A stretch of DNA of 32,087 nucleotides, from NCBI RefSeq assembly GCF_011947365.2, contig NZ_JAAVSH020000001.1:28038-60124 (forward strand), in the 5' to 3' direction. Below the pieces are notes generated by a model that was given only the letters and a program-made list of their open reading frames with translations, was not told the DNA's origin and did not search any database. The translations under genes were made by a program, and so were the position numbers. This stretch comes from an endosymbiont of Lamellibrachia barhami. GTDB lineage: Bacteria; Pseudomonadota; Gammaproteobacteria; Chromatiales; Chromatiaceae. Numbering within the stretch: the first letter of the stretch is position 1; each line of letters opens with the position of its first letter. Of the stretch, positions 13,520 to 28,926 are shown one piece after another.

Positions 13520-14812
13520 TTACATAAAGATGTCGTTGGTGATGTTGTCGAACCAGCTGTAGGCGTACTGCACCTCGCGGGCCCGCATTTCGGCAGAGGC
13601 ATCCTTGGGTGTCAGACCGCCGGAGACTTTGGTGATCTTGGAGCCGTCTTTAGCCAGACGATAAACTGCCGCAACGGAGATACCGTAGCCCGGGCCGATG
13701 ATAGAGTAGCAGGTGTTGACGTAGGCCGGCGTACCAAGCTCCTGACCATTCAGCATCGCAACAATAGCAGCGGCGCAGACCTTGGCTTCAGAGTTGGCTG
13801 CATAGCCGGATTTCGGCATACCCTTTGCAATAGCGGCATCACCAATCACATGGATATTCTTGTGAATGGTTGACTCAAAGGTGTGCAGGTTGATCGGACA
13901 CCAGTCGCCTTTGGTCAGGCCCGCAGCGAATGCGATCTTGCCAGCCTTCTGGGCGGGGATCACGTTCAGTACGTCCGCAGTGACTTCGTTGAAGCCGGTG
14001 GTCGCAGTACGGGTCTTGGCGTCGATGCCGGTCAGCACATTGTCGTCGGAACCCTTCGGGGTGCCGTGCCACTCGATCATGCTGTTGTCTGTGCCGTAGC
14101 CATAGAGATCCTTCCAGCCCTGTACGAACAGGCCCATCTTGGAGAATTTCGGCTTTGGATCCAGGATGATGATCTTGGACTTTGGCTTGTGCTGCTTAAA
14201 GTAGTGTGCGATCTGCGAGGCGCGCTCATAGGGTCCGGGAGGACAACGGAAGGGATTGGTTGGCGGGCAGATACAGACAGTGCCGCCATCCTTCATTGCC
14301 AGCAGTTGCTTGCGCAGGGTCACGGTCTGTGAACCGGCCTTCCAGGCGTGGGTGATGGTCTCCGCCACATTGGCATCGTAACCTTCAATGGTCTCCCACT
14401 TGAAATCGACACCTGGGGCGACGATGCAGCGGTCGTAATTGAAGCTCTTGCCGCCCTTGGTCTTGACCACGCGTTTGCCGGCATCGATGCCGGTAACGAT
14501 GTCGTGAACGACCTTCACACCGTGCTTGCCAACACCACTGTAACCGAACTTGATGGAGTCGATGGTACGGTCGCCACTCAGAACCTCGTTGGAGAGGTAG
14601 CAGGTGTAGTAGTGCTTGTTGGCTTCGATCAGGGTGACATCGATGGTCGGATCGGCCAGCTTCAGATACTTGGCAGCAGTTGCGCCACCGGTACCACCAC
14701 CAACCACCACCACCTTCTTACTTGCGCCCAGAGCGATAAAAGGGGTACCGATCATGCCAACAGCAGTCGCTGCACCAGCACCTTTTACAAAACTTCTACG
14801 GGTAATCTTCAT
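13520..14812 (-). CDS. fccB: Flavocytochrome c sulfide dehydrogenase, flavoprotein subunit
   Basis: A 430-residue periplasmic flavoprotein that oxidises sulfide to sulfur or polysulfide and passes electrons to the FccA hemes. It starts with a Tat signal ([19 protein letters not shown]), as expected for a folded flavoprotein export substrate. The FAD-binding GxGxxG motif is [17 protein letters not shown] (34-50). Cys71 in [10 protein letters not shown] corresponds to the cysteine that links covalently to FAD in Allochromatium. Cys190 in [12 protein letters not shown] and Cys368 in [13 protein letters not shown] match the spacing of the Cys161-Cys337 redox disulfide once the ~30-residue signal is removed. 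The C-terminal FCSD domain (YVNTCYS to [12 protein letters not shown]) is complete. It follows fccA by 14 bp. All catalytic features are intact. Confidence 0.97.
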
Positions 14813-14826
14813 GTTTTCAATCCCCC

Positions 14827-15438
14827 TTATTGCTGGCTTGCGTAGAAGTGCATCAGATCGTCAATACTGCCGTCGCCTTTCGCCTTCAGCATCTTGTTGA
14901 GTTTCTTTTTCATCTTCTTGGAAATGGGACGGTCGCCCGCCCTATAGTCAGCCAGGGTCCACTTCAGGTAGGGTACCAGCTGGCCGGCGAGGACACCGGA
15001 ATCGTCTTCAGCGTCAGTTCCACCATCTGCATGACACTTTTCACAGTACTTGTCGTGCAGCTTGGCGCCCTTCTTGGCCTTTGCTGCATCGAACTTCTGG
15101 TTCGCTGCGACAAAAGGCTTTTTACCGTAGAAACCTGCCATTGCAGTAAATTCTTCGTCGGTATAACCCTTGGCAATGCGGCCCATAATCGTGGATATAA
15201 TCTCGCCACTCTTATAGCCTTGCATGATCTCAACAAAGTATTCAGTGGAGAGACCACCGATGCTGGGGATAGCCGGACCGACGCTGGCGCCGTTGGTGCC
15301 ATGGCAACCGGCGCAGGTGTCGGACATCATTTTTGCGCTGGCGCCCATCATCAGGGGTTTGTCAGCGGCGAAAGCCAGTGTAGATGCACTGAGAGCCAGT
15401 GCGCCGATCAGGGCCTTCTTAATGGTTGTGTATGCCAT
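14827..15438 (-). CDS. fccA: Flavocytochrome c sulfide dehydrogenase, diheme cytochrome subunit
   Basis: A 203-residue diheme cytochrome c that takes electrons from the FAD of FccB during sulfide oxidation. It has a Sec signal peptide ([20 protein letters not shown], cleavage near AFA at residue 24), CAGCH at 42-46 and CEKCH at 132-136, giving the two fused class I domains and overall size typical of FccA. The Lys-rich C-terminal stretch ([18 protein letters not shown]) is common in this subunit. GGAGGAAAC lies just before the ATG. It is the first gene of the fccAB operon, with 314 bp of noncoding sequence upstream holding candidate operator repeats. Dual export (Sec for this subunit, Tat for FccB) is the usual arrangement for this enzyme. 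Confidence 0.95.
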
Positions 15439-15752: not shown

Positions 15753-16694
15753 TCAGCCTGCTCTCTCGAGCAGATTGACGATATGCTTTTTTCTTTTCTT
15801 TTTGGCAATGTCTGCCGCTGTGCGACCGTTGCTGTTTCTAATTGTTTTATCGGCGCCCTGCTTCAGCAGAAGCCGGGTCATATCCGCGGAGCCACTGCTC
15901 GCAGCTTCCATCAGTGGCGTGATGCCATCATGATCAGCGTGGTTGATATTGGCGCCTTTGTCAATCAGCAGTTTTGTGATTACTATGTGCCCTTGTCCCA
16001 CTGCCCAAATCAATGCCGTCGCGCCGTCACGATCTTCTTTGGCGATGGAAGCGCCGAGTTTCAGCAGGCTCTCTACCGTCTCTTCGTTGCCGCGGTCGGC
16101 CGCAAGTATCAACGCGGTGGAGCCGTTTCTGTCCTGGGCATCGGCGTTGGCGCCATGTTTGAGCAGCATTTCGGCGGTATCCGTATGACCTTTTCTCGCC
16201 GCCATCATGAGAGCGTTTCTGCCGTGCTTGTCCGACGCGTGGGGATCGGCCCCCTTGAAGAGAAGTTGTTCTACCATGTCCGTGATGCCGTAACGGGCGG
16301 CAATCATCATTGAGTCCCAGCCGGCCCGGGTGCGATCATGTATATTTGCGCCGCGTTCGAGCAACATTGCGGTAAGTGCCGGATGCCCGTTTTCGGCTGC
16401 AACAGTAAGTGCAGTGCAGCCTGCGAGGGTACGGAAGTTGACCTGAGCACCCCGGTTCAGCAGCAGGACGACAGTTTCGAAATTGTCGTTTTCGACCGCC
16501 ATCATGAGAGCGGTCTTGCCGAATTTATTGGCGGTGTCGACCGAAATGCCTTTATCCAGAAGTTCAATGATGACGTCTGTGTCACCGACAATGGCGGCCA
16601 GTCTCAACTCTTTTGCCATCTCCTTGTCACCGGAGAGGACTGGAGTTGAGATGAGCAGCGCAAGCAGTATTGCGGCAAGCTTGTTTTTCTTCAT
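15753..16694 (-). CDS. Exported ankyrin-repeat protein
   Basis: A 313-residue protein: a Sec signal peptide (MKKNKLAAILLALLISTPVLSG), then an almost uninterrupted array of about eight 33-residue ankyrin repeats, each with the G-x-T-A-L/LMxAA-x-x-G-x-x-x-x-x-x-LLxxGA pattern (for example GKTALMMAVENDN, GRNALMMAARKGH, GITPLMEAASSGS), closed by a basic tail (KKKRKKHIVNLLERAG). It is a protein-binding scaffold expected in the periplasm. It is the second gene after a tetraheme cytochrome (36-bp gap) and sits above fccA, so it probably docks or stabilises a cytochrome or other periplasmic partner. No enzymatic motif is present. Confidence 0.92.
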   Translation of the reverse strand: MKKNKLAAILLALLISTPVLSGDKEMAKELRLAAIVGDTDVIIELLDKGISVDTANKFGKTALMMAVENDNFETVVLLLNRGAQVNFRTLAGCTALTVAAENGHPALTAMLLERGANIHDRTRAGWDSMMIAARYGITDMVEQLLFKGADPHASDKHGRNALMMAARKGHTDTAEMLLKHGANADAQDRNGSTALILAADRGNEETVESLLKLGASIAKEDRDGATALIWAVGQGHIVITKLLIDKGANINHADHDGITPLMEAASSGSADMTRLLLKQGADKTIRNSNGRTAADIAKKKRKKHIVNLLERAG

Positions 16695-23314: not shown

Positions 23315-24091
23315 CTAATGAATGCTCGTCCAGATCATACGCCCATTCAGCGGTTGCACAGGACGGGCATTGTAGCCGATAGCATCGGTAAATTTTCGCA
23401 GCTGCAGATCGGGTATCTCGATCGGGTTTTTGAACACGATCCAGCGAGCAGGTTCTTTACAGGGAGGTGTTGTCAGTGATCCGTTGTAGAGTACATGACT
23501 TCTATTGGTCGGCAGCAGAAAGATTGCGTTGATACCGATCTGGCGACTGTATCTCTGGCCACCATTTTCTTGTGGCAGGTGGCGGGCGATTCGCTTGACC
23601 ATCAGGTTGTTGCGTCTTCCCGCGTTTACCGGAATTGCGAGTATCACAGGGTTGCCGTTGTTGTCGATATGGTTGAGCTGAATCTCCATATCAGCAGCCC
23701 TGCCCAGATAGGTATGTTCACCAGGTATATGCAGATCAATACTGCGCAACTGAAAACGTTCACCACCCATCTTCATGAATCCACCGGATTCCATATCCAG
23801 TGAAATGCCGTGGTTAGATCGTCGGATTGACAGGATGCTGGTGCGGTAGAAAAAAGAGAGTGGCAGGTGCTCGGATTCTATGGCGCCCTGGATATCCACA
23901 GGCGATTGCGCTTGGCCTGCTCCACACGCGCTGAATGCGCTGGAGAGAGTGCTCCATTTCTCCGGGGGCGTTTCACCGCTATAGCTCCAAGCCTGTCCTG
24001 ATTGTGAGTCCGTGTCGCGTGCACTGAGACTCAGCGACAGCGAGAGAAAGACGGCCAGAGCGAAAAATTTAATCACTGATTGCATGTTCAT
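23315..24091 (-). CDS. Alpha-carbonic-anhydrase-like protein lacking two zinc ligands
   Basis: A 258-residue exported protein (signal MNMQSVIKFFALAVFLSLSL) with the alpha-carbonic anhydrase fold markers QSPVDI (62-67), GSLTTPPC (204-211) and NARPVQPLNGR (241-251), plus Cys56 and Cys211 in the positions of the bacterial disulfide. Aligned with the canonical FHFH ... ELHLVH pattern, however, the zinc histidines 94, 96 and 119 become Asp119, His121 and Gln139 (RSIDLHIPGEH; MEIQLNH). The network Glu residues (Glu125, Glu137) and Thr208 remain. Normal CO2 hydration is therefore unlikely, as in vertebrate carbonic-anhydrase-related proteins; a binding role is more plausible. It is the last gene of a minus-strand series, 108 bp after the YyaL-like gene. 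Confidence 0.9.
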   Translation of the reverse strand: MNMQSVIKFFALAVFLSLSLSLSARDTDSQSGQAWSYSGETPPEKWSTLSSAFSACGAGQAQSPVDIQGAIESEHLPLSFFYRTSILSIRRSNHGISLDMESGGFMKMGGERFQLRSIDLHIPGEHTYLGRAADMEIQLNHIDNNGNPVILAIPVNAGRRNNLMVKRIARHLPQENGGQRYSRQIGINAIFLLPTNRSHVLYNGSLTTPPCKEPARWIVFKNPIEIPDLQLRKFTDAIGYNARPVQPLNGRMIWTSIH

Positions 24092-24199: not shown

Positions 24200-26563
24200 T
24201 CAGATTGAAGGTAGGGTGGGAATATGGAGTTGCAATGTCTCCGGCGGCAGACAGACCTCATCGCTGCACGCCTGTAATTTCACATCGATGGATGTTGTCT
24301 TGACTGCAGCCGTGTCAGAGGTGGGAGTCAGCATCGCCTGTAGCGTAATCACTCCTGCATAAACGGAGAGCGGATCACTTTGAAAAGCCAGCTGCTGTAA
24401 CGTGGGTTCTGGATAGGTGACGGGGCCCATGCTCCATTGGCCAGCGCTGTCGGCCAGATTGATCTCAGTGGCGATTAAATTCTTGCTCAAAGGCTGATTG
24501 GCATTGATGTGCCAGCCCTCAGGAATGGTGATGGTGATGGTTAACAGCTGTTTGTCATTCTTGAGTGTCCTGGCCTTGCCCATGAGGCGGATGCCGCCTT
24601 GTGCGGCATATCGGCGGGCGCTCAACTCCCCCTGCTGTAGATCATCGATGGCGCTCAACATGTAGGTGTAGCCGTTGGGATGCCGCTCAATTGCGGTGGC
24701 GAAACTGCCGATCAGGTTATTGGCGTGAGTGCGATAGTCCAGCTTGCCGGTGCGTACCCAGAGCATCTGTAACGACTTAAGGGCCACTGAACTACCGGAT
24801 GGGATGGCGCTGTCGGTGCCGCTGTCCTTGGGGCGTCCCATTGCGCTGAAGTTGCTCTCCTCTTCATTCATATAGAAGCCGCCGTTCTGTTCGTCGCGAA
24901 ACCGGCCGATCATGGCATCGGCGATCTCTTGCGCCCGTTGCAGCCACTTTTTATCTTCGGTCAGATCGTAGAGATAAAGCAGTGCTTCAGAAAGATAGGC
25001 GTAATCCTCCTGCGCTGCGGCAACCGAGGATTGTCCGTCGAGGTGTACCCGCCAAAGCTTGCCGGCAGCTTTGCGATTTTGCTGCCAGATAAACTCCCCC
25101 GCCTGTTCTGCGGCCTTCCGGTAAGTATCTGCAGCAAGAAGGTCGGCGGCCTGTGCAAAGGCGGTGATCATCATGCCGTTCCAGGCGGTGACCTCTTTGT
25201 CGTCCCTTAACGGATGTTCCCGGCCTTCGCGTACCTTGCGTAATACCGTATTGATATGATCGATCCGCATCTGCAGGGCGGTAAGATCCAACTTGTTTTC
25301 TTCGGCATAACTCTCCAGGTCTGACTGCAGGTGGAGGATATTCTTTCCTTCGAAGTTGCCACTGTCTGTGATGTTATAGAGATCGATTGCCAGGTCGGCA
25401 TCTTCCGGCGCCAAAGCGTCACGAATCTGGGCGGGTGTCCAGATGAAGAAGGCCCCCTCTTCACCCTCACTGTCGGCGTCGGTGGCTGAGTAGAAACCGC
25501 CGTTGGGTGAGGTCATCTCGCGCATGACGTAATCGAGAGTCTGAGTGACCACTCGACGGTATTTCTCCTTGCCGGTGAGTCGCCATGCATACAGGTAGGC
25601 GCGAGCGAGATGAGCCTGGTTGTAGAGCATCTTTTCGAAGTGCGGCACCAGCCATTCGTTGTCCGTGGAGTAGCGGTGAAAACCGCCCCCCACCTGATCG
25701 TAGATCCCCCCCCGGGCCATTGCATCGAGGGTGACCTCCGCCGCCTCCAGTGCCGCTGAATCATTACTGCGTTCCGCCTGTTGCAGCAACAACAATAACC
25801 AGGGTTCGTGGGGGAATTTTGGTGCCACGCTGAAGCCGCCCTGCAGTTCATCAAAACTGCCGAGCATCGTCTTGAGTGCTGCGGCGATGGCGGTCTTGTC
25901 GAGTGCCTTGGCTGTGCCTTTGTGGTTGTTGGCTGTTTTTACGGCTTCCGCCACTCGATCCGCCTGATCGAGGACGCCGGCTTTTTTGTCGCGCCAGACC
26001 TGCTGAATCTGTGAGAGCAGCTGTCCGAACTGGTCGGGTGGGAAATAGGTGCCGCCATAGAAGGGTTTGCCCTCCGGGGTGAGAAAGCTCGACATGGGCC
26101 AACCGCCATGGCCGGTCATCAGCATCACAGCGGTCATGTAGACCTCGTCTACGTCGGGATGGCTCTCCCGGTCGACCTTGATGGCCACGAAATGCTCATT
26201 CAGTATTTTGGCCAACTGGAGGTTCTCGAAACTCTCCCGCTCCATAACATGGCACCAGTGGCAGGTGGAGTAACCGATGGAGAGAAAGACCGGCTTGTTC
26301 TCACGTTTTGCCTTTTCAAAGGCCTCTTCCCCCCAGGCATGCCAGTCCACCGGATTATGGGCATGTTGCAGCAGATAGGGGGAGTCTTCCAGGATCAGGC
26401 GGTTGATATATATCGGTGAGCCGTCTGCGTTTAAGTGTTCGGTGCGGGGTTTGTAATCCTCTCCCTTGGCCTCGTAGGCGGCTTTGAGTTGTTGATCGAT
26501 TTCCATAGGCCTCGTGACCGTGTTGTTGGCGTGGGTTGCAGCGAAAGCCGTGCCGCCGAGCAA
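24200..26563 (-). CDS. YyaL/DUF255 thioredoxin-domain protein fused to a DsbD-N-like domain
   Basis: About 787 residues from a TTG at 26563. An N-terminal thioredoxin-like domain ([18 protein letters not shown]; active site [12 protein letters not shown]101-C104) leads into the long alpha/alpha-barrel typical of YyaL/SPATA20 ([40 protein letters not shown]). Then comes an extra ~100-residue C-terminal beta domain: [31 protein letters not shown] and [17 protein letters not shown]. That end matches the N-terminal domain of DsbD, whose Cys pair receives electrons; here the pair is at about 766-771. An export signal core ([13 protein letters not shown]) overlaps the start. A well-placed ATG at 26607 ([11 protein letters not shown]), 3 bp after the previous gene's stop, is one base out of frame, which suggests a frameshift in the signal region. 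Confidence 0.9.
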
Positions 26564-26610
26564 GAGCAGAGCCAGAGCAGCAGACTGGGGATGAGTCGTT
26601 TTATCATGGG

Positions 26611-27159
26611 TTACCCGCGATCCTCGGCCAGTAGTTGGTTGATCAGTTGGACGCCGCTTGCCGGATCAAAACTGCCGAATCGCTGGAAGCGGATACGTCC
26701 TTCTTTGTCGATGATGGCCATCTCCGGTGTGCCGCGGGTGCGGTATCGTTTCATGGTTTCCGGGATTTCGTCGCCGTCAACGTGCCGATCGATTCCCACC
26801 AGGTGTTGGATATTTTTTTGTTTGAGATAGGTGCGCAGCTTTTTGGGATTCTGATAGTCATGCCCTTCAAACACGGTGTGGATACTCAGCATCACCAGGT
26901 TTCCCGCTGTTATCTCGTCGGCAAACTGTTGCTCCCACCTGGCCATCAACGGCACCGAAAAGCTGTTGCAGCCAGGGCACCAGAGTTGGAAAAAGTCGAT
27001 CACCACCACCTTGCCTTTGAGTGCCGCCAGGGTGGTGCCATCGCCGTTGATCCATTCGGAGATATCCCACTCCGGTGCGGTGCGGCCGTTGGCCAGAACG
27101 CCTTGAGTCAGACTCATTAACAGTAGTGTGATAAGGAGTTTTGATAGATAGGCGCGCAT
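26611..27159 (-). CDS. Periplasmic TlpA-like thioredoxin (CPGC)
   Basis: A 182-residue exported protein: signal peptide [20 protein letters not shown] (cleavage near VLA at residue 23), then a thioredoxin fold with active site [13 protein letters not shown] (C61-C64) and cis-Pro loop [15 protein letters not shown]. The CPGC active site and the inserted segment [20 protein letters not shown] place it near TlpA/DsbE-like reductases. It lies between the rhodanese gene (10 bp before) and the YyaL-like gene (3 bp after, if that gene uses the ATG at 26607), so it is firmly within one operon. A role in keeping sulfur-carrying or cytochrome thiols reduced is inferred. Confidence 0.9.
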
Positions 27160-27169
27160 GGTTTGGTTC

Positions 27170-28072
27170 TCAATGTTTTAGTTGGACCTTCTGTTCCATG
27201 GGTAGGGCGTGGTCAAGCGCCCACTCGGCGGTCGATCCATCGTAAAGACGAGCCTGCTTGTTACCCAAGAGTTCGTGGGAGACGAACCAGCCAAGGGCGG
27301 CGCGATGGCCTGTATGACAATAGTTGATCTGTGGGCCGCTCAGCGGTACCTGATTGGCGGCATAGATCTTTTTCAGATTATCGATGGTATGAAAGGTTGC
27401 GCCGCCATTGGCGGTCAGCCAGTCGTAAGAGATATTGACAGCTTTGGGCAGACTGCCTGGGCGTTCTTTGCCGCTGCCGGAGTAGATGCCCATGTATTCG
27501 GCGCGGCTGCGATTGTCCACCGCCAGCGCCCCCTTTTCGAGGGCCGCTTTTACCTCTTGTGCGTCGGGGATGTAGTCGGCCCTGAGGTTGACCTTGAAGA
27601 CCTTCGGCACTGCTTGGTTGAGACCGTTCTGCAGTGGGTAGACCCGCTTCTGTGCATAGTTGATCAGCCCCCCGCCGAGGATGGAAACCTGATCATGCCC
27701 CAGTGCCTTGAAGGTCCAGTAGACGCGTGAGGCGCTCGCCATGTCACCAGCGCCGTTTCCGGTGGTGACCAGTACGACGTGGGTATCATTATCGATGCCC
27801 AGACGGCCGATCAGTTTCTCCAGTTGCGCGGGAGGCGTCATGATCTGGGGTATCTTTTTCGCCGACGTGCGTCGCCAGTCACCGTAGCTGGAGTTCACCG
27901 CGCCGGGGACATGGTATCGCTGATAGGCTTTGGCGTCCTGCAGATCGAGGATTACGACCCCGCTCTTCCCGCGATTGTTATGCACCCACTCCGGTGAGAC
28001 CAGCGGCTGAGCCGCCAGCGCAAAGGTTGTGGTGAAGATGAGGAGGAGAGAGAGGGCAAAGGGCTTCATCAT
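27170..28072 (-). CDS. Periplasmic tandem-rhodanese sulfurtransferase
   Basis: A 300-residue protein with a signal peptide (MMKPFALSLLLIFTTTFALA) and two rhodanese domains. The N-terminal domain (residues 25-145, VVILDLQDAKAYQRYHVPGA) has lost the catalytic Cys (TTGNGAGDMA). The C-terminal domain (160-295) has the active loop YCHTGHRAAL with Cys252 and the preceding DNRSRAEYMGIYSG. This active C-terminal/inactive N-terminal layout is that of thiosulfate or 3-mercaptopyruvate sulfurtransferases; the periplasmic location suggests sulfane sulfur from sulfide or thiosulfate oxidation as the substrate. It is 10 bp upstream of the TlpA-like gene and 74 bp after the Cys-rich peptide gene. Confidence 0.93.
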   Translation of the reverse strand: MMKPFALSLLLIFTTTFALAAQPLVSPEWVHNNRGKSGVVILDLQDAKAYQRYHVPGAVNSSYGDWRRTSAKKIPQIMTPPAQLEKLIGRLGIDNDTHVVLVTTGNGAGDMASASRVYWTFKALGHDQVSILGGGLINYAQKRVYPLQNGLNQAVPKVFKVNLRADYIPDAQEVKAALEKGALAVDNRSRAEYMGIYSGSGKERPGSLPKAVNISYDWLTANGGATFHTIDNLKKIYAANQVPLSGPQINYCHTGHRAALGWFVSHELLGNKQARLYDGSTAEWALDHALPMEQKVQLKH

Positions 28073-28111
28073 GGTTTTTCTTCGTCTATTGGCCTGTTTG
28101 AAATGTGACTG

Positions 28112-28134
28112 CCGGGAACCGTGTTGGTTCCCGG
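28112..28134. other. Intercistronic stem-loop
   Basis: CCGGGAACC pairs perfectly with GGTTCCCGG across GTGTT, between the Cys-rich peptide gene and the rhodanese gene. No U run follows on the minus strand, so it is more likely a processing or stability hairpin than a terminator. Confidence 0.6.
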
Positions 28135-28146
28135 AGTGGCTATTCG

Positions 28147-28401
28147 TCAGCTGCCGGGCTGGACGTTGAGGCCGAAACCAATACCGCCGCCCTGCTGCAT
28201 GCGGTACTTACCTGCGGCCCTGGTTGCAACGAAGCTGGTGAACTCTTCGACATTCTCAAAATCCATCTTTTGTGTAAATTGCACCAGTGCATCGATCAGT
28301 TTTTTGGTCTCGGCGATCTCTTCATGGCTGCGCCCGCAGCCCTGGCAGTGGGTGCCGCCTTCTGTGCAGTTGTCTCCGCCCTGGCAGGGTATGAATATCA
28401 T
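28147..28401 (-). CDS. Small Cys-rich protein, DUF1289-like motif
   Basis: An 84-residue protein without a signal peptide. Four cysteines lie in the first 22 residues (C6, C12, C19, C22: PCQGGDNCTEGGTHCQGCGR), and HCQGCGRSHEEIAETKKL resembles the CxGCGRTxxEI motif of DUF1289, thought to bind metal. A helical middle (ALVQFTQKMDFENVEEFTSFV) and a Gly-rich tail follow. GAGG lies 7 bp before the ATG. It is first in the series leading into the periplasmic rhodanese and TlpA genes, but it appears cytoplasmic itself. Function unknown; the family link is suggestive only. Confidence 0.72.
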   Translation of the reverse strand: MIFIPCQGGDNCTEGGTHCQGCGRSHEEIAETKKLIDALVQFTQKMDFENVEEFTSFVATRAAGKYRMQQGGGIGFGLNVQPGS

Positions 28402-28602: not shown

Positions 28603-28641
28603 CGGGAAAAAGTGACAGCAGTATGTCGCAGGAGGTTTATC

Positions 28642-28926
28642 ATGAAGACAATGCGCAAATTCCTGACTGCAACAGCAGTGGCAGCACTTGTGGCACTGCC
28701 GGTATCCACCGCAGATGCCTGGTGGGGTGGTAATGGATGGGGTGGCTTCGGTTTCTCCTTTGGCTTCTCCGGTTCAGGCTGGGGGCGCAATTGGTACCGG
28801 CCATGGTATGGGTATAGAAATTACGGTTACTATCCCTACCACTATGGCTACTACCCTTCCTATTACCCGGTATACACGCCGGTTTTGACGCCAACACTTG
28901 AAGTACCACAGTTGGCTGAAAAGTAG
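28642..28926 (+). CDS. Sulfur-globule-type envelope protein (Gly/Tyr/Trp-rich)
   Basis: A 94-residue exported protein: signal MKTMRKFLTATAVAALVALP with cleavage after ADA (residue 26), then WWGGNGWGGFGFSFGFSG and a Tyr-rich stretch (RNYGYYPYHYGYYPSYYPV). This composition and the WWGG start after the signal are hallmarks of the SgpA/SgpB proteins that form the coat of periplasmic sulfur globules in purple and other sulfur bacteria. The start at 28642 is set by AGGAGG 6 bp upstream; an ATG at 28612 in frame would put Arg-rich residues before the signal. The gene stands alone, with an inverted repeat before it and a nested inverted repeat right after the stop. Other Gly/Tyr-rich envelope proteins cannot be excluded. 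Confidence 0.82.
   Translation: MKTMRKFLTATAVAALVALPVSTADAWWGGNGWGGFGFSFGFSGSGWGRNWYRPWYGYRNYGYYPYHYGYYPSYYPVYTPVLTPTLEVPQLAEK

Follow-up and report, generated by a model that had tools for sequence, protein, structure and literature searches.

A YyaL/SPATA20 protein that ends in a DsbD_N domain raises a simple question: what does such a tail do in a family that extends to mammals and has no agreed function? The protein is encoded on the minus strand (24200..26563) of a 32,087-nucleotide stretch of DNA, referred to here as the window (G000:C1:28038-60124), in the 4.17-Mb genome of an endosymbiont of Lamellibrachia barhami. Our leading answer, to which we give slightly less than an even chance, is that this is an exported YyaL/SPATA20 member whose C-terminal dithiol sits on a domain of the DsbD-alpha type (DsbD_N), and that it acts as a membrane-free reductase passing electrons to a TlpA-like client.

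Among the matches listed in our searches, YyaL/SPATA20 proteins, presumably the family COG1331, were found in bacteria and archaea. An extract of PMC6822775 calls them entirely unstudied in bacteria, and an extract of PMC7084401 mentions a cytoplasmic YyaL with an unclear role. Among the papers listed by full-text searches of open-licence PubMed Central, none was identifiable as treating a YyaL-DsbD fusion, and domain databases may well list the YyaL-DsbD_N architecture.

A DsbD_N domain at the end of a YyaL/SPATA20 chain

The initial annotation had recognized a DsbD_N signature at the C terminus of a YyaL-type protein, and the profile matches bear this out. Counted from a TTG codon, the 787-residue protein contains a thioredoxin-like domain (Thioredox_DsbH/DUF255, PF03190; residues 54-208, 25940..26404, minus strand like all features of this protein; expect value (E) 4.9e-71), with 238.4 bits against a Pfam cut-off of 27 and a CHWC dithiol at residues 101-104 (26252..26263). 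An alpha/alpha-barrel of the AGE/sugar-epimerase fold follows at about residues 224-644 (24632..25894), and Pfam also gives epimerase-like barrel matches. The DsbD_N domain (PF11412; residues 668-777, 24233..24562) exceeds its cut-off of 25 bits both in the whole protein (38.2 bits, E 1.6e-9) and alone (43.2 bits, E 4.6e-11), and carries a second dithiol, C-x4-C, at residues 766-771 (24251..24268). Pfam finds no transmembrane DsbD domain (PF02683) in this protein; the single DsbD_TM match of the genome lies elsewhere.

In an AlphaFold2 model built from 28 aligned sequences (mean predicted local distance difference test score, pLDDT, 89.8; predicted template-modelling score, pTM, 0.92), residues from about 650 onward, including the DsbD_N domain, are almost all beta. 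Foldseek placed the model closest to 7TKV (Bab1_2064; E 4.6e-46, 594 columns, TM-score by target 0.85) and also matched the barrel to epimerases. A model of an ordinary relative (mean pLDDT 93.1) instead places the tail pair within a small alpha/beta region, and the predicted folds of the two tails thus seem to differ.

The protein can be compared with several known systems. With YyaL/SPATA20 proteins (PF03190, DUF255; 7TKV) it shares the CHWC thioredoxin-like domain, the alpha/alpha-barrel and a C-terminal C-x4-C-xx-P, but ordinary members, of about 690 residues, end in a short tail of this kind (78 proteins), whereas here a DsbD_N domain takes its place and relatives have a signal peptide. 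As in DsbD, a DsbD_N domain, whose paired cysteines are followed by PP, is combined with a thioredoxin-type domain in one chain; the fusion differs in having no membrane domain and in placing the thioredoxin domain first. By eye, the fusion has GWHINAN where DsbD has GYYLYRD, and its C-x4-C contrasts with C-x5-C in the genome's own DsbD, a full-length protein (G000:C1:1776497-1778107) with two consecutive DsbD_N domains ahead of the membrane domain. A six-frame DsbD_N search of the genome is not fully sensitive: it recovered the two DsbD copies but not the fused domain. The thioredoxin domain is weakly similar to DsbH (NF043050; PDB 2JU5, the Chlamydia protein), at 20.1 bits far under the cut-off of 190; DsbH is not known to have a barrel or a DsbD_N tail. 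TsoB, a rhodanese/DsbD fusion-like selenoprotein (NF045694), shares a thioredoxin-type stretch (27.9 bits, where the cut-off is 805), but the YyaL fusion has no fused rhodanese.

We classed 148 YyaL loci as 52 fusions, 78 with the short C-x4-C-xx-P tail and 14 without the motif, and excluded 4 more, of which L014 and L029 are cut, whereas L219 and L220 are full-length proteins shorter than 500 residues. A script assigned 48 of the fusions, and L132, L136, L137 and L149 were added by eye. CHWC is present in 78/78 tailed ordinary proteins, although some of the loci, the best 80 of a longer match list, were located in part with the pattern CHWCHVME, which favours CHWC. In alignments whose rows were drawn from loci already seen to have a tail, the only invariant cysteines are C101, C104, C766 and C771 in 28 fusions, where the whole CHWC motif and P774 are also invariant (28/28), and C50, C53, C663 and C668 in 42 ordinary proteins. 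The C-terminal pair of the ordinary proteins is present in the fusion, but carried on the DsbD_N domain. That domain was detected in all 21 fusion tails tested (E up to 0.01) and in none of the 42 tailed ordinary proteins tested (E up to 0.001). Judged from these matches, the DsbD_N tail is the mark of a whole YyaL subfamily. In two fusions, L149 (G279) and L146 (G084), CYWC replaces CHWC, and the L149 tail has C-x5-C, the same spacing as DsbD.

A universal C-terminal dithiol in YyaL was rejected because a tail-less subfamily of 570-607 residues exists. It accounts for ten of the 14 loci without the motif (L208-L217) and forms a separate starred branch of the tree. The others are L067, whose terminal C-x4-C lacks the proline, L077, which is seemingly shifted at its end, and two single odd cases, L218 and L221.

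The tree itself is a quick one, with Shimodaira-Hasegawa-like approximate likelihood-ratio test (SH-aLRT) support only, made from 95 of 149 rows and from cores with the tails cut off. In it, 40 of 48 fusions fall in a single block, unstarred at a support of 82, that includes two Acidobacteria, four further proteobacterial fusions are unresolved beside the block, and a starred branch places L058, L089, L119 and L149 with the ordinary proteins. The fusion label needs 3 changes on this tree. Because the starred branches force at least 2, the DsbD_N domain and the short dithiol tail appear, from sequence, to be C-terminal modules that can replace each other.

Under a strict rule on hydrophobicity, a signal-like start is found in 23/49 fusions, 12/76 ordinary proteins and 7/13 proteins without the tail. 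Most of the fusions that do not pass it nevertheless have such a start by eye, the exceptions being L089, L066 and L064.

Of 369 genomes in the class, at least 28 carry the fusion; its tail was read in 26, since G041 is cut by a contig end and G299 is assigned by match range only. The closest named relative among the matches listed is from Candidatus Thiodiazotropha (ex Epidulcina), at 65% identity. The fusion also occurs in Acidobacteriota and Armatimonadota and in records named Amphritea, Photobacterium, Ketobacter and Granulosicoccaceae, a distribution that does not support the earlier tie to sulfur oxidation. A fusion specific to sulfur oxidisers was rejected on these record names. An extract of PMC6822775 also supplied the lead that SelO might be an alternative to YyaL; across the class, SelO occurs in 96/202 genomes with a YyaL match and 93/167 without (Fisher p 0.14), and in 15 of the 28 fusion carriers, a set that is a lower bound; these counts give no sign of such a relation.

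TlpA as neighbour and candidate client

The gene before the fusion (26611..27159, minus) encodes a TlpA-like exported thioredoxin of 182 residues. It shares with TlpA/ResA/CcmG proteins a signal-like start, a match to a thioredoxin-fold family (AhpC-TSA, 30.0 bits against a Pfam cut-off of 26) and a WCPGC motif, and has PDB relatives in 3LOR and 3EYT. It differs in belonging to a narrow subfamily, with relatives at E <1e-60 in 4/369 class genomes.

We surveyed the neighbours of the fusion at 53 loci (52 fetched and the window) and of ordinary YyaL at 62, on stretches of differing length; L085 and L124, flagged as long, were counted as ordinary by their tails, and L064 is in neither count. Among the neighbours tested, TlpA recurs most often, encoded on the same strand no more than about 250 bp away at 10/53 fusion loci in five genera: the window genus (6), G028, G130, G357 and a Granulosicoccaceae record in which a 30% identical TlpA follows downstream of the fusion. 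One of the ten genes, that of G005, is interrupted by an intron. Other neighbours, read by eye, varied. Neither TlpA nor the rhodanese discussed below lies within the fetched stretch at any of the 62 ordinary loci, many of which come from distant phyla where the neighbour search is less sensitive.

Co-occurrence in whole genomes points the same way. TlpA (E up to 1e-20) is found in 11/369 class genomes, and 5 of these 11 carry the fusion; once the query genome is removed, the comparison is 4/10 against at least 27/368 (p 0.004). The four genomes with relatives at E <1e-60 all carry the fusion (3/3 without the query, p 3.6e-4), although this cut was chosen after a gap in the scores was seen and the test ignores relatedness. 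In G012, and likewise in G230, the TlpA gene is on a contig other than that of the fusion.

These observations suggest how the fusion might work. In DsbD, the gamma domain, of thioredoxin fold, reduces the alpha domain, which in turn reduces DsbC, CcmG and similar proteins. The fusion has two conserved dithiols, CHWC and C-x4-C, joined by the alpha/alpha-barrel, and a recurrent, although not constant, neighbour in TlpA. In the periplasm, the CHWC pair of the thioredoxin domain would pass electrons to the DsbD_N pair, a step that would parallel that from DsbD-gamma to DsbD-alpha minus the membrane domain, and the DsbD_N pair would then reduce TlpA or a similar client. The separate complete DsbD of this genome is a possible electron source. 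A soluble periplasmic TlpA reductase is the simplest reading, because the protein combines a thioredoxin-type with an alpha domain, has no membrane part and has TlpA as a neighbour. It is possible, but on balance doubtful, that tailed YyaL/SPATA20 proteins in general are soluble versions of the DsbD gamma-to-alpha relay, with the short C-x4-C tail or the DsbD_N domain doing the same job.

Several results weigh against a TlpA reductase. TlpA cannot be obligatory, since at 43 of the 53 fusion loci there is none nearby (although a few stretches, those of L043, L046 and L163 among them, stop shortly beyond the gene). The 50 Foldseek matches listed for the whole fusion are YyaL-family chains, glycosidases and sugar epimerases or isomerases, with no nDsbD among them in a whole-protein search swamped by the barrel, and a search of PDB chains with the DsbD_N profile gave no match at E up to 10. 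Invariant D, H, E, K and R residues of the barrel are common to fusions and ordinary proteins, and a bare relay needs none of them. Finally, all 10 examined members of the 570-607-residue subfamily have CHWC but lack the C-terminal dithiol, which shows that some YyaL function can do without the tail.

The explanation that we rank second, and consider rather unlikely, makes the barrel the working part: an enzyme resembling sugar epimerases or glycosidases, which the dithiols keep reduced or switch, with TlpA reducing the switch. The many invariant polar residues in both classes and the AGE-type fold found by Foldseek speak for such an enzyme, and the subfamily without a C-terminal dithiol retains CHWC together with the barrel region. 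However, substrate and catalytic residues are not assigned here, and no recurrent sugar genes were seen by eye among the neighbours inspected.

The gene row and its rhodanese

Four minus-strand open reading frames make up the row around the fusion, at the positions first annotated: a Cys-rich peptide of 84 residues (28147..28401), an exported tandem rhodanese of 300 residues (27170..28072), the CPGC thioredoxin and the YyaL-type gene. The peptide is weakly DUF1289-like (19.3 bits, under the family cut-off of 27 in Pfam) and is kept in 5/5 congeners; the rhodanese matches the Pfam Rhodanese family in two stretches, with CHTGHR in its second domain. Because the genes are conserved in five genomes of the same genus at 91-96% identity, the arrangement is beyond chance. 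The first two intergenic gaps, 74 bp and 10 bp, are as described before; the third, 3 bp before the YyaL gene, is not, since the ATG there opens another frame. Matches resembling promoters and terminators around the genes are no more frequent than in shuffled sequence.

The earlier proposal was a periplasmic relay of persulfide sulfur among rhodanese, TlpA and the fusion, in connection with sulfide oxidation and sulfur globules. The gene order is indeed kept in six species of one genus, the CHTGHR loop resembles an active site, and in a set of 55 relatives the fusion is present in 8 of 12 rhodanese genomes, 6 of these 8 from one genus. However, the rhodanese is in the same row at only 7/53 fusion loci, in the window genus and G012, that is, in two genera. 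At E up to 1e-45, 16/369 class genomes have a relative of it, of which 4 have the fusion (G000, G012, G130 and G279) and 12 have none among the matches listed; without the query, the co-occurrence is weak, at 3/15 against at least 27/368 (p 0.09). In G130 the rhodanese lies elsewhere in the genome, after a gene that by eye is DsbA-like. The sulfide oxidation genes once described as adjacent, for the flavoprotein and cytochrome of flavocytochrome c sulfide dehydrogenase (13520-15438, minus), are about 9 kb away; fusion carriers include records not named as sulfur oxidisers; and in one congener, G005, the rhodanese is frameshifted.

We conclude that persulfide transfer is without specific support and very unlikely. 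The rhodanese, as its distribution in these sequences indicates, is a lineage-specific neighbour, and it was rejected as a constant partner because only two genera have it next to the fusion and most class genomes with a relative of it have no fusion among the matches listed. The genes do co-occur in related genomes, with adjacency limited to two genera for the rhodanese and five for TlpA. Of the proposed relay, thiol-electron transfer involving TlpA is supported to some extent by adjacency and co-occurrence; little speaks for the three-part version that includes the rhodanese.

Further genes lie around the row. Directly downstream of the YyaL gene is a carbonic anhydrase gene (eukaryotic-type Pfam model; 23315-24091, minus), kept in five congeners. 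Divergent from the row, a 104-residue Gly/Tyr/Trp-rich protein (28612-28926, plus; 93-100% identity in congeners) is sulfur-globule-like by eye only and has no Pfam match. An ankyrin-repeat-like protein of 313 residues (15753-16694, minus) adjoins a gene for a NapC/NirT-type cytochrome.

Probable damage at the locus and meaning of the fusion

The YyaL gene of the window looks broken at its 5' end. The ATG at 26607, 3 bp after tlpA, is in a different frame from YyaL and its frame ends after 58 codons; the remnant start, ATG and the beginning of the signal peptide, occupies 26564..26607 (minus), as open reading frames and the comparison with congeners indicate. A 5-bp tandem duplication, GCTCT GCTCT (26563..26572, minus), overlooked in the initial annotation, shifts the signal-peptide frame. 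The first in-frame ATG, GTG or TTG of the 787-residue frame is the TTG at 26563, which excludes most of the signal peptide. In all five congeners the 5 bp are absent, and ATG, signal peptide and mature protein are in one frame. The extra 5 bp stem either from true slippage or from an error in the assembly, and the copy in this genome is probably defective or mis-assembled. With the duplication, export of the protein as encoded here is improbable, unless the gene is dead altogether.

This break is one reason to consider that the three genes drift together by descent at a decaying locus and are dispensable in these bacteria. Relatives show further damage: besides the frameshifted rhodanese, G005 has an intron in tlpA, and single genes are absent from the locus, the rhodanese in G028, tlpA in G012 and both in L047. 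The intron (L036, 9837-12191, minus) is of group II, with two Rfam matches and an open reading frame named by eye as a reverse transcriptase; it lies in the sense orientation, and from its sequence it may splice and leave TlpA functional. After the signal peptide, moreover, the YyaL frame is intact in the window, and 5/5 congener matches are stop-free at 93-94% identity. We regard decay as unlikely, less so than persulfide transfer.

The fusion of YyaL to DsbD_N is real, conserved and informative on an orphan family; it is not a new system, nor is it specific to sulfur oxidisers. A domain of known function that replaces the C-terminal dithiol of YyaL is a direct clue to what this family does, and one that can be tested by simple thiol-exchange assays comparing fused with ordinary YyaL.

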